Shown here in pieces: positions 6,007 to 10,970 of a DNA stretch of 57,207 bases. A program made the translations under genes and the position numbers. Origin of the DNA: a bacterium (GTDB lineage Bacteria; Sysuimicrobiota; Sysuimicrobiia; Sysuimicrobiales; Segetimicrobiaceae); NCBI GenBank assembly GCA_035295165.1, contig DATGJN010000075.1, positions 1 to 57,207 of the forward strand. The letters are read 5' to 3'. The first letter of the stretch is position 1; every line of letters starts with the position of its first letter. A model generated the notes under the pieces. The model made no database searches. It was given only the letters and a program-made list of their open reading frames with translations, and was not told the DNA's origin.

Positions 6007-7017
6007 TCACCAGAGGTGCTTGTATTTCGCCGCGAACCGCCGCTCAAGGGCCTCCTGGTGGAGGTGGTACACCGGACAGTCTCGCATCGCGCACACGTGC
6101 AACGCGGTGTTGCAGTACGCGTCGGATACACGCCAGCATTCGTTGTTCACGAAATAGGCCGAACACACGCCCTTGCGCGACTGCACCTGACGCGGCTCGA
6201 CGCCGTTGAGCAGCATGTGATCGCCGGCCGGCCGGTGCTCGCGCGGGGCACGCCGACGCGACGCGGCCGCCTTCTTGGCGGACGTCCGCGGCCGGGTCTT
6301 TCGTGCCCGCGCCTTCGCCCGGGCCGCTCCCTCACCCCCCCGCCGCTCGCGCCCCGGGGCTGACGGCGCCCCGGCGACCCGATGAGCCTTGGACGCCGGA
6401 GCGCTCTGCCGCACCGCCGCGTCCGCCTGAGCGGCCTCCTCGCGTGGTGCCGCCGCCTCACGCTCCGCCGCGGTCCGCGGCTCCGGTGGACTCTCAAGAC
6501 GCCTCGGACCCCACCGCGGCTCGACGAGACTCTCATCGCGCCCGTCGGGTTCACGATGCTCCTTGGCGTGCTCCGGGGCGTCATGGCCGTCGTGTGGCGC
6601 ATCCGTCGCGGGTACCCGTCCCGCAGGCGGCGCGTACCCATCCCTCCAGCCCGTGCCGCCGTCGGTTGCGTGCGGGGCGGGCGACGCCGGTCCGACGCGG
6701 GCGGGACCGACTTCCCGCACCTCGACGGCGAGCACCTCGGCGTCCAATATCACCCGTTCGTCGACGTCACTCCCGGCGTCCGACGCGGCTGCGTCCTCGG
6801 CGTCCCGCTCTCCCGTGTCCGCCACGACGGCGCTCTGCACGTCGCCCCACTCCGCGCGGGGATGGGGCGCGTCCTGGGGCGCCGCGGGGGCGCTATCTGT
6901 GTCCTGCGCCGGCGCCTCCACGGTCGCGTCGCGCCCCTCGAGATCGGCCAGCTCGCGGGACGTCTCCTGGATGAGCGACCTAATCCCCCGCCGGAGCGCC
7001 TCGCGGTGCTTGCTCAA
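6007..7017 (-). CDS. Uncharacterised disordered basic protein with C-terminal cysteine cluster, coupled to parA
   Basis: A 336-residue protein I do not recognise as a whole. It begins with a basic amphipathic segment (SKHREALRRGIRSLIQETSR), continues with about 200 residues of low-complexity Ala/Pro/Glu/Asp/Arg sequence, then a Lys/Arg-rich stretch (about 225-270) resembling histone-like tails, and ends in a compact conserved-looking module with Cys285, 294, 302, 309 and 314. That module contains ECW and CPVYHLH, recalling the short CW...C...CPxY cysteine motifs found in some sensory proteins. The start is a TTG at 7017, chosen because AAGGAGGTGAT, a full anti-Shine-Dalgarno match, lies 9 nt upstream inside parA. 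It overlaps the parA end by 38 bp. A role as ParA partner or cargo is inference. Confidence 0.75.
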   Translation of the reverse strand: MSKHREALRRGIRSLIQETSRELADLEGRDATVEAPAQDTDSAPAAPQDAPHPRAEWGDVQSAVVADTGERDAEDAAASDAGSDVDERVILDAEVLAVEVREVGPARVGPASPAPHATDGGTGWRDGYAPPAGRVPATDAPHDGHDAPEHAKEHREPDGRDESLVEPRWGPRRLESPPEPRTAAEREAAAPREEAAQADAAVRQSAPASKAHRVAGAPSAPGRERRGGEGAARAKARARKTRPRTSAKKAAASRRRAPREHRPAGDHMLLNGVEPRQVQSRKGVCSAYFVNNECWRVSDAYCNTALHVCAMRDCPVYHLHQEALERRFAAKYKHLW

Positions 7018-7867
7018 GCGCCATCACCTCCTTGGCGAGACTCATGTACTCCTGGGCCCCGCGCGAGGTGCGATTGTGCACAAAGACCGGCACGCCGACC
7101 ATGCTCGACTCAACGAGCTTGATGTTGTGGTGCACGACACTCCGGAACATCTTGTCCCCGAAGTAGTCCTTGATCCCCTGCAGGATCTCCTTGCTGATGC
7201 TGGTTCGGGCATCGTACATTGTCGGGACGACCCCGGCGATTTCAATCTCGTGCCCAACCTCTTCCCGCACCACCTTGATCGTGCGGAGCAGCTGGCGCAT
7301 CCCGAGCAGCGCGTAGTAGTGGGTCTGGATCGGAATGATCACCTCGCGACAGGCGACGAGGGCGTTGAGCGTCAGGAGGCCGAGGGACGGCGGCGTATCG
7401 ATCAGCACGTAGTCGTACCGGTCGCGGACCGGCGCGATCTTCTTGCGCAGCATGTTCTCGCGGCCGATGCGCGCGGACAGCTCGAGTTCCGCCGCCGCCA
7501 GATCGATCGACGAGGGAACGAGATCCAGGTGCTCGACGTTGGACGGCAGGATGACGCTGGCCATCTCCACGCCGTTGCCGTCGTCGCCGGCATCGTCCAC
7601 GAGAACCTGGTAGATCGTGCGGGACAGGCTCCCCGGGTCCACACCGAGGCTCACGGTCGCGTTCGCCTGGGGATCGAGGTCGATCAACAGCACGCGGCGC
7701 TTGTTGACGGCGAGGCACGCGGCCAAGTTCACCGAGGTGGTCGTCTTGCCGCACCCGCCCTTTTGGTTGACGAGCGCGATCACGCGCCCCGTGGTGCCCG
7801 ATGGTCCCTGCAGGACGCCGCCTCCCACATCCGAACCGCGTCGGGACCTGGCGTCGAACACCGACAC
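6980..7867 (-). CDS. parA: ParA/Soj-type partition ATPase
   Basis: About 295 residues. The deviant Walker A is NQKGGCGKTTTSVNLAACLA; LLIDLDPQANAT is the A' motif and DYVLIDTPPSLGLLTLNAL is Walker B. The remainder matches chromosomal Soj/ParA (VPTMYDARTSISKEIL, YFGDKMFRSVVHHNIKLVES). Such ATPases form dynamic nucleoid-bound gradients that position DNA or protein cargo. No parB or parS-like site is adjacent; the partner may be the overlapping downstream gene. The start is uncertain: GTG codons at 7867, 7861 and 7897 are possible and none has a clear ribosome binding site. About 150 bp separate it from cca, with an 18-bp GC palindrome at 7987-8004. Confidence 0.9.
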   Translation of the reverse strand: MSVFDARSRRGSDVGGGVLQGPSGTTGRVIALVNQKGGCGKTTTSVNLAACLAVNKRRVLLIDLDPQANATVSLGVDPGSLSRTIYQVLVDDAGDDGNGVEMASVILPSNVEHLDLVPSSIDLAAAELELSARIGRENMLRKKIAPVRDRYDYVLIDTPPSLGLLTLNALVACREVIIPIQTHYYALLGMRQLLRTIKVVREEVGHEIEIAGVVPTMYDARTSISKEILQGIKDYFGDKMFRSVVHHNIKLVESSMVGVPVFVHNRTSRGAQEYMSLAKEVMALEQAPRGAPAGD

Positions 7868-9355: not shown

Positions 9356-10147
9356 TCAGTCGCGCGCCGCCGGCGGCCGCCCCGCGATCATGCCGCGCAG
9401 GCGCGCGAGCGCATCGCGCAGCACCCGCGACACGTGCATCTGCGAGATCCCCAACCGACGGGCGATCTCGGCCTGAGAGAGGTCTTCGTAGAATCGAAGC
9501 CGCACCACCTCGCGCGCGCGTTCGGGCAGCCGGGCGAGCGCCGCGTCGAGCGTCGCGCGGTCCTCCAGGGACTCGAGCACCGGATCCTCGGTGCCGACCG
9601 TGTCCGCCAGCGCCGTCCCGTGATCGTCGTCGCCGTCCGGCATCTCCGCGTCGAGCGACGCCGGGCTGTACGCCCGTCCGACTTCCATCGCTTCGAGGAC
9701 GTCCTCGAACGGGATGCCGGCGGCCTCCGCGATCTCGGGAATCGTGGGCGACCGACCCAGCTTTTGCGAAAGCTCCTCGACGGCCCGCATCAGCGCGTAG
9801 TTCAGCTCGCGCAGCCGCCTGGGCACGCGAACCGCCCACAGCTTGTCCCGAAAGTGCCGCTTGATCTCGCCGACGATCGTGGGCGTGGCGTACGTCGTGA
9901 ACTCGATGCCGCGCATGGGGTCGTAGCGGTCGATCGCCTTCAACAGCCCGATCTGCGCGACCTGGATCACGTCCTCGAGCGGCTCGCCCCGGTCCGCGAA
10001 CTTCCGGGCGAGATAGATCGCCAGGTTCTCGTGCGCGAGCACGAGTTCGTCTCGCGCCTCAGCCTCTCGCCCGGCGTGGTACCGCGCAAACAGCGCACGG
10101 ATCTCGGCTTTCGTCGGAATCGGGCGCGCGGGACGGCGCGACGCCAT
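9356..10147 (-). CDS. SigB/SigF/SigG-family RNA polymerase sigma factor
   Basis: A 263-residue group 3 sigma factor lacking region 1. Region 2 (about 35-105: LAIYLARKFADRGEPLEDVIQVAQIGLLKAIDRYDP, then FTTYATPTIVGEIKRHFRD) binds core polymerase and the -10 element. Region 3 follows (LSQKLGRSPTIPEIAEAAG), and region 4 ends in a helix-turn-helix (LSQAEIARRLGISQMHVSRV) for the -35 element. The similarity to stress/sporulation sigma factors is clear, but the regulon cannot be read. The gene directly follows an RsbW-like gene with a 3-nt gap, the usual arrangement for a sigma factor with its cognate anti-sigma factor. It is within the mnmA-cca operon. Confidence 0.94.
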   Translation of the reverse strand: MASRRPARPIPTKAEIRALFARYHAGREAEARDELVLAHENLAIYLARKFADRGEPLEDVIQVAQIGLLKAIDRYDPMRGIEFTTYATPTIVGEIKRHFRDKLWAVRVPRRLRELNYALMRAVEELSQKLGRSPTIPEIAEAAGIPFEDVLEAMEVGRAYSPASLDAEMPDGDDDHGTALADTVGTEDPVLESLEDRATLDAALARLPERAREVVRLRFYEDLSQAEIARRLGISQMHVSRVLRDALARLRGMIAGRPPAARD

Positions 10148-10150
10148 CGA

Positions 10151-10579
10151 TCAGCCTCCGCGCCGCTTGACGAGCCGCACCCCGGCCGTGCCCGCCGCGA
10201 CATCCCGGCGCGCTTCGACCTCGTCCACGAGGCACTGCATCAGGAACACCCCCAGGCGCCCCTCGTCTAGGTCGGCGTCGCCGTCGGGCGCCCCGGGAGC
10301 CAACGAGATCCCCGGGCCGCGCCCGTCCACGCTGACCTCGAGCGCGTCCCCGCGCAGCGCAAACCGCACGACCAGGGAGGACCCCGGCGCAACACCGGCG
10401 GTGATCAGCGACGTACAGGCCTCGCTCACGGCGATCTTGAGGTCCTCGATCTCGTCGTACATCAGCCCCTGGCGTGCCGCCACTGCGGCGGTCGTGAGTC
10501 GCACGACGCTGACGAATTCGGCGCGGGCCGGGATCGTGACCTCGACCTGCTCGACGTCGGCCGACCGCGGCTGCTCCAC
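10151..10579 (-). CDS. RsbW/SpoIIAB-like anti-sigma regulatory protein (GHKL fold)
   Basis: A 142-residue protein with the single GHKL ATPase-like domain of anti-sigma factor kinases: the N-box region DLKIAVSEACTSLI, a G1-like VDGRGPGISL, and a G2-like GRLGVFLMQCLVDEVE. RsbW-type proteins bind the sigma factor and are released by an anti-anti-sigma factor. The Mg-coordinating Asn expected in SEACTN is Ser here, and the G1 box is not canonical, so kinase activity is doubtful while sigma binding may remain. The GTG at 10579 follows GGGAGG and lies 1 nt after the ytxH stop. No RsbV-like antagonist is nearby. Confidence 0.85.
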   Translation of the reverse strand: MEQPRSADVEQVEVTIPARAEFVSVVRLTTAAVAARQGLMYDEIEDLKIAVSEACTSLITAGVAPGSSLVVRFALRGDALEVSVDGRGPGISLAPGAPDGDADLDEGRLGVFLMQCLVDEVEARRDVAAGTAGVRLVKRRGG

Positions 10580-10580
10580 C

Positions 10581-10970
10581 CTACGCCTCCCGGTCGTCGG
10601 CGGGCAGATCGTCGCTTCCCCGCCGCAAGATCGACTCGCGCCCCGACTCGAACGCGTCCCGCATGCGCCCGGACGTCTCGTCGAACACGCCGCGGCCGCG
10701 GTCCAGCACGTCGCCCGCGGTAGAACGGACGCGGGACGCGATCTCGTCGGCGTTGGCTCGGACTCGGCCCGTGACCTCATCGGCGGTCCGGCGGACCTGG
10801 TCCGCCACCCGCTCCGCGCGGTCCCGCGCGCGGTCGCGCATCTGCTCGCCCTCCCGGCGAAGACGCTCCCGCGTCTCTTCGCCGGCGGCGGGTGCGAACA
10901 GGATTCCCAGCGCCACCCCGATCAGGGCACCCAACATCAATCCCGTGAACAAATCGCGACGCTCGTTCAT
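10581..10970 (-). CDS. YtxH domain protein
   Basis: A 129-residue small membrane protein. An N-terminal hydrophobic glycine-rich segment (LFTGLMLGALIGVALGILFA) is followed by PAAGEETRERLR, the classic YtxH signature. A long charged amphipathic helix with periodic Arg/Ala/Val follows, likely coiled coil. YtxH proteins are linked to general stress regulons, but their biochemical role is unknown. The ATG at 10970 overlaps the DUF948 stop as ATGA and has GGAGGAGGG upstream. The neighbouring stress-type sigma/anti-sigma genes fit the family's known context. Confidence 0.85.
   Translation of the reverse strand: MNERRDLFTGLMLGALIGVALGILFAPAAGEETRERLRREGEQMRDRARDRAERVADQVRRTADEVTGRVRANADEIASRVRSTAGDVLDRGRGVFDETSGRMRDAFESGRESILRRGSDDLPADDREA

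Follow-up and report, generated by a model that had tools for sequence, protein, structure and literature searches.

ParA-type ATPases position chromosomes, plasmids, carboxysomes, flagella, and chemoreceptors. The cargo of an orphan ParA depends on its partner, and the diversity of partners is so great that many have yet to be identified (PMC10241942). In M. xanthus, residues L11, L15, L18, and I19 of ParB occupy a hydrophobic pocket in the ParA dimer, for which the ParA residues V116, L150, L152, L155, L187, and L192 were tested, and ParB R13, surrounded by Y81, E82, D110, and E117 of ParA, is critical for the stimulation of hydrolysis (PMC12462528). A ParA-binding motif is also found on PadC of the same species, a protein linking ParA to a non-DNA structure (PMC12704722). 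In the PpfA/TlpT system of chemoreceptor positioning, an orphan ParA has a partner other than ParB, whose N terminus modulates the ATPase activity (PMC7333895). McdB, the partner of McdA in carboxysome positioning, is of very variable length, binds its ATPase through basic residues at the N terminus, and carries a Trp near the C terminus (PMC12204374; PMC11321042).

Here we describe a pair of genes from the order Sysuimicrobiales (Sysuimicrobiota), located in a 57,207-nucleotide stretch of DNA that was analyzed as a whole and is called the window below (contig DATGJN010000075.1). The two genes probably constitute a ParA-type system dedicated to positioning, distinct from the chromosomal ParABS and equipped with a new adaptor family (Table 1). 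A search of the literature on Sysuimicrobiota found no mention of ParA in the passages of the main paper that it covered.

Table 1. Features of the parA–partner locus (positions in the window).
Feature	Position	Strand	Remarks
parA	6980..7867	-	second, non-ParABS Soj-like ParA ATPase; KGGCGKTT signature-lysine Walker A
Partner/adaptor gene, 336 aa	6007..7017	-	TTG start; 38 bp overlap with the parA stop
Partner N-terminal 28 aa	6934..7017	-	basic amphipathic helix; candidate ParB-type ParA-activating motif L8-x-R10-x-I12-x-x-L15-I16
Partner linker	6181..6933	-	low complexity, Ala/Pro/Arg-rich; Lys/Arg-rich stretch at its end in family f1 only
Partner C-terminal five-cysteine module, 57 aa	6010..6180	-	terminal Trp
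AAGGAGGTGAT, ribosome-binding-site-like string	7023..7033	-	doubles as parA codons AKEVM

A preliminary description of this DNA had reported a 336-residue protein overlapping parA by 38 bp, and this layout was confirmed: parA ends with TAG at 6982-6980, and the partner reading frame runs from its TTG at 7017 to 6007. The start of parA is uncertain, with GTG candidates at 7867, 7861, 7828, or 7783; alignments with relatives start no earlier than residue 8. A full ribosome-binding site had also been claimed for the partner. The string AAGGAGGTGAT does precede the TTG, but the same bases encode AKEVM, a stretch that tends to be kept in ParA (K 61%, E 87%, and V 89% among 38 sequences), so that the site arises in part simply from the coding of ParA. 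Across families the gene order recurs, with a CCA-adding enzyme upstream, then parA, the partner, AsnRS, RimP, and NusA; these are names that we assigned by reading the sequences. Upstream of the CCA-adding enzyme, at 9356-10780 (-), lies what we take, likewise from reading, to be the gene of a SigF/SigB-like sigma factor, preceded by an anti-sigma-factor-like kinase gene.

The ATPase matches Pfam AAA_31 (5.4e-61). Its closest solved structures are 8ray (E 4.5e-62), identified as M. xanthus ParA because its residues fit the numbering of PMC12462528, and Thermus Soj 1wcv, which bears out the Soj type given in the preliminary description. Orthologs occur in 42 of the 43 genomes of the order at 64–93% identity, and 38 of the 43 encode other Soj-like ParAs alongside (38–50% identity). 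The signature Lys31 together with Lys36 is present in 40/40 readable orphan ParAs and the catalytic D58/D60/N64 in 41/41; at the position of R238, a basic DNA-binding residue in M. xanthus, there is Lys in 40 and Arg in one of the 41. The Walker A motif reads KGGCGKT in 30 sequences and has Ala at the G35 position in 10, with one sequence masked. This KGGCAKT variant (10/40 readable; L047, L054, L055, L067, L076, and others) belongs to family f2 as far as seen. A tree was built from 40 orphan ParAs (the 41st was omitted because of masked bases) together with the Soj of the genome itself, M. xanthus ParA, and 24 ParAs from outside the order. The orphan ParAs formed one clade with 100/100 support, inside which the larger families of the order were recovered; its attachment point is uncertain (long branches).

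On another contig the same genome encodes a single ParB, with an N terminus matching LGRGLGALI, next to a ParA of its own that is 41% identical to the orphan ParA. A single perfect parS, TGTTTCACGTGAAACA, lies inside this chromosomal parB (G000:C94:7857-7872, L145/L146). The window's contig has no parS with up to two mismatches, in agreement with the earlier remark that none lies near the orphan ParA, and the perfect site occurs at the other locus only. Because the genome thus also has an ordinary ParAB with parS, the orphan ParA and its partner are a separate pair. The preliminary description had itself raised the objection that a ParB elsewhere with normal parS sites might account for the orphan ParA; that ParB has its own adjacent ParA, and the objection fails in substance.

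The partner is restricted to the order. Its last 54 residues, used as a single-sequence query against 61 genomes, matched 41, all of them Sysuimicrobiales (41/43, seven families), and none of the 18 outside. A profile of the C-terminal module (27 rows) found the same 41 in a sample of 386 genomes and 0/343 outside the order, and a second, partly overlapping sample of 385 genomes centered on another lineage yielded two matches, both already-known members of the order, and 0/383 among the others. Module identity across the seven families is 57–85%. The profile of the partner's N terminus matched 42/43 genomes of the order and gave one weak match (E 6e-4) among the 343 others. The gene immediately upstream on the same strand is parA in each of the 41 genomes with the module; the co-occurrence that the preliminary description had proposed to check is therefore found throughout, and the module does not occur mainly away from parA. 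The overlap of the partner start with parA is exactly 38 bases long in 38 of 41 cases (37 found by script, plus L043 with the same TTG); two others overlap by 110 bases, and in L050 the script-assigned start lies beyond the parA stop. In G004, ParA and the N-terminal helix of the partner are followed by the contig end, and G034 (72% complete) has neither a ParA ortholog nor a partner. A second module match in G033 comes from a related strain, on a contig that contains masked bases. Viral contigs gave no confirmed match to the partner. As plasmid homologs, just four Rhizobium matches came up (32.7% identity, E 0.07-0.08), which were put down to chance. A search for the ParA in 80 genomes outside the order returned matches in 24 (E <= 1e-66). 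No obvious counterpart of the pair was seen at these 24 loci, 23 of which have a downstream protein bearing a ParB-type N terminus, with L165 lacking one. Together, the invariable coupling, the pattern in G004 and G034, the single ParA clade, and the recurring synteny indicate that the pair is old, vertically inherited, and core to the order, not mobile.

Searches in Pfam, NCBIfam, PHROG, and PADLOC assigned no credible family to the partner, and no ParB CTPase fold or HTH domain turned up in Pfam or NCBIfam at E values as high as 1. Weak matches to Pfam Ank_4, DUF1439, and DUF7830, in PHROG (E 0.22 and 0.63), and in PDB (E 0.17) were judged to be chance. Two parts of the protein are conserved, the basic N-terminal helix of residues 1-28 (REELRRGIRxLIQDTSxEL) and the last 57 residues, and the linker joining them varies from 42 to 279 aa in the 41 homologs. 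In the C-terminal module, 16 of 57 columns are invariant (27 rows), including five Cys; all 41 partners have five cysteines within the module and zero outside, and Cys285/294/302/309/314, listed in the preliminary description, are indeed the sole cysteines of the window's partner. The final residue is Trp in 40/41 and Tyr in 1/41. In five comparisons of the window's partner with relatives, dN/dS was 0.08-0.16 for the module, 0-0.25 for residues 13-28, and 0.53-0.83 for the linker, the last range resting on an unsure linker alignment; conservation of residues 1-12 is not independent of parA because they overlap it. A chance frame in this high-GC DNA, where many frames overlap, is practically ruled out as an explanation of the second gene by the module identity between families, dN/dS far below 1, and the start kept in 38/41.

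In a structure model of a 142-aa homolog, the N-terminal helix spans residues 2-27 (block pLDDT 74-89), the linker is mostly below pLDDT 50, and the module is helical with middling confidence. Modeled alone, the module reached pLDDT 70 and pTM 0.43, so its fold is uncertain, and comparison of this model with PDB (Foldseek, VIA-align) gave no match. A presumed likeness to a "two-CW" cysteine domain was dropped, with no paper found and no NCBIfam match. The hydrophobic moment of the N-terminal helix exceeds that of shuffles (mean z +2.4). An amphipathic C-terminal helix serving as membrane anchor was rejected, as the hydrophobic moment there does not exceed that of shuffles (mean z -0.3). All partners of family f1 (11/11) have 30 consecutive residues with a net charge of +7 to +13, against <= +4 in the other 30 partners; thus the Lys/Arg-rich, histone-like stretch pointed out in the preliminary description exists and is not conserved. 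The suggestion of a DNA- or metal-binding cargo system gains no support from this family-specific stretch, and metal binding by the module is hinted at by its five invariant cysteines only. Partners of families f2 and f6 (e.g., L047, L057) share RP(I/L)LRLVR in the middle of the linker, and some of f4 have VRY(L/I)RP or a similar string. This may be a second binding motif; it is not evident in the window's family.

The N-terminal helix matches the contact positions of M. xanthus ParB at the same spacing, with L8, R10, I/V/L12, L/F/I/V15, and I/L16. Among the 41 partners, L8 is found in 41 and R10 in 39 (His in two), and positions 12, 15, and 16 are hydrophobic in 41 each. The pattern L.[RK].[ILVMF]..[ILVMF][ILVMF], derived from ParB L11/R13/L15/L18/I19 (PMC12462528), is present in 39/41 partners vs 76/41,000 shuffles and 2/1,664 other ORF starts; a stricter pattern, made post hoc and also requiring Gly, is present in 37/41 vs 13/82,000 shuffles and 0/1,658 ORFs. 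When the N termini of 23 ParBs (the genome's own and 22/23 outside ones; L162 was left out) were turned into a score matrix, the best window fell on the expected site in 41/41 partners, at index 7 in 40 and at index 6 in one, whose start was set six residues later. Just 18/41 scored above the 99.9% shuffle level, because the invariant Gly of ParB at +1 is Arg in the partners. Measured against the ParB motif LG-R/K-GL, the five contact positions are kept in 39/41, but Gly at +1 is replaced by Arg in 40/41. Most of the pocket of the orphan ParA is likewise kept, and part of it has diverged: Y81, D110, E117, L150, and G151 are kept in 41/41, L152 in 39, and L155 in 40, and V116 is Leu in 40, E82 is H/Q/N, L187 is mostly M/V, and L192 is mostly V. 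Such retained contacts amid altered flanks might be expected of a paired system that is insulated from the ordinary ParAB of the cell. The basic N terminus, the conservation of which had been left to be checked, is thus conserved and fits the ParA-binding motif of ParB; together with its place behind parA in 41/41 genomes, this gives good support to the earlier idea of a new ParA partner.

With ParABS the locus shares a Soj-type ParA and a partner gene directly downstream; unlike ParB, the partner has no ParB domain or HTH and no nearby parS, reads LRRGIR where ParB has LGRGL, and comes from a genome with a separate ParABS. The variable length and basic N terminus are reminiscent of McdB, as is the Trp, which is the very last residue here and alone is no sign of homology, but the window's genome has no BMC shell protein. 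No cysteine module is known in McdB. PpfA/TlpT offers an orphan ParA with a non-ParB partner, but the present partner has no chemoreceptor domain, and no chemotaxis gene was recognized nearby; the ParB fold with its CTP binding sets PadC apart. Like ParA/MinD ATPases and their partners in general, the pair combines a linked gene, a basic N-terminal helix, and a separate further part, and it likely works like these positioning systems, with a partner that is a member of neither the ParB nor the McdB family. Our literature search for ParA partners rich in cysteine, or for ParA-binding motifs beyond ParB, listed no paper on a partner of this kind besides the ParB papers already cited. From its sequence features, the partner is a previously undescribed kind of adaptor, with a putative ParB-type activating helix, a flexible linker, and a five-cysteine head.

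The five invariant cysteines admit other readings. Combined with the basic stretch of family f1 and the ParB-type motif, they could belong to a second DNA-partition system, in which the head would be a zinc-type DNA-binding domain marking a chromosomal site and the partner a ParB analog. We consider this decidedly unlikely, given that 38/43 genomes of the order encode another ParA, Soj-like, in addition to the orphan one and that the window's genome has a full ParABS, that the partner has neither HTH nor ParB domain, that the basic stretch is missing from 30/41 partners, and that known zinc domains in Pfam or PDB gave no match. Alternatively, the head could be a redox or metal sensor, a switch by which oxygen, metal, or iron-sulfur status would govern the release of ParA, and not a grip on cargo. 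The confinement of all cysteines to the module would suit such a sensor, but no known sensor family was matched and cysteines can be purely structural, which makes this reading unlikely as well.

Concerning the cargo of a dedicated positioning system, the neighboring genes give no pointer. The BMC shell protein PF00936 had no matches in the window's genome (2/14 controls matched), and positioning of BMCs or carboxysomes is excluded for this genome. In Sysuimicrobiota, reports of flagellar core genes concern two named families (PMC11604079), which makes flagella unlikely as universal cargo. One particular form of the same system would be positioning of the division site or cell pole as by PomXYZ or MipZ, in place of Min. 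MinC_C was over cut-off in 0/43 genomes of the order, with one sub-threshold fragment, and gave no match of any kind in the 28 good-quality genomes (controls, 6/14 matched), and the pair is near-universal in the order, as expected of a division factor. Many bacteria without Min, however, have no such replacement, no division gene was recognized beside the pair, and the MinD search covered PF13614 in the genome's own sequence only; we see this as possible but rather improbable.

For the dedicated positioning system with its adaptor, we propose the following mechanism. ParA-ATP dimers would coat the nucleoid, and the N-terminal helix of the partner (L-x-R-x-I-x-x-L-I) would dock in the dimer-interface pocket used by ParB, thereby raising ATP hydrolysis and freeing ParA. 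The flexible linker would tether this helix to the five-cysteine head, a compact helical unit that ends in Trp and is probably stabilized by a metal or cluster. The head, with its terminal aromatic residue, may grip a cargo, which would then follow the ParA gradient across the nucleoid. Most likely, the cargo is built of protein and shared by all families of the order. A variant in which the head is a metal- or redox-responsive cysteine switch, with cargo carried over the nucleoid in only one head state, appears very unlikely; if true, it would tie the positioning of a core cell structure, possibly the division site, to the metal or redox state.

These results assign a clear partner family, together with a testable activation motif and a mapped pocket, to an orphan ParA that forms part of the core of an entire order. 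The five-cysteine head is new and is the probable cargo handle. The separation of a ParB-type activating peptide from the ParB fold suggests that this peptide may be a portable part.
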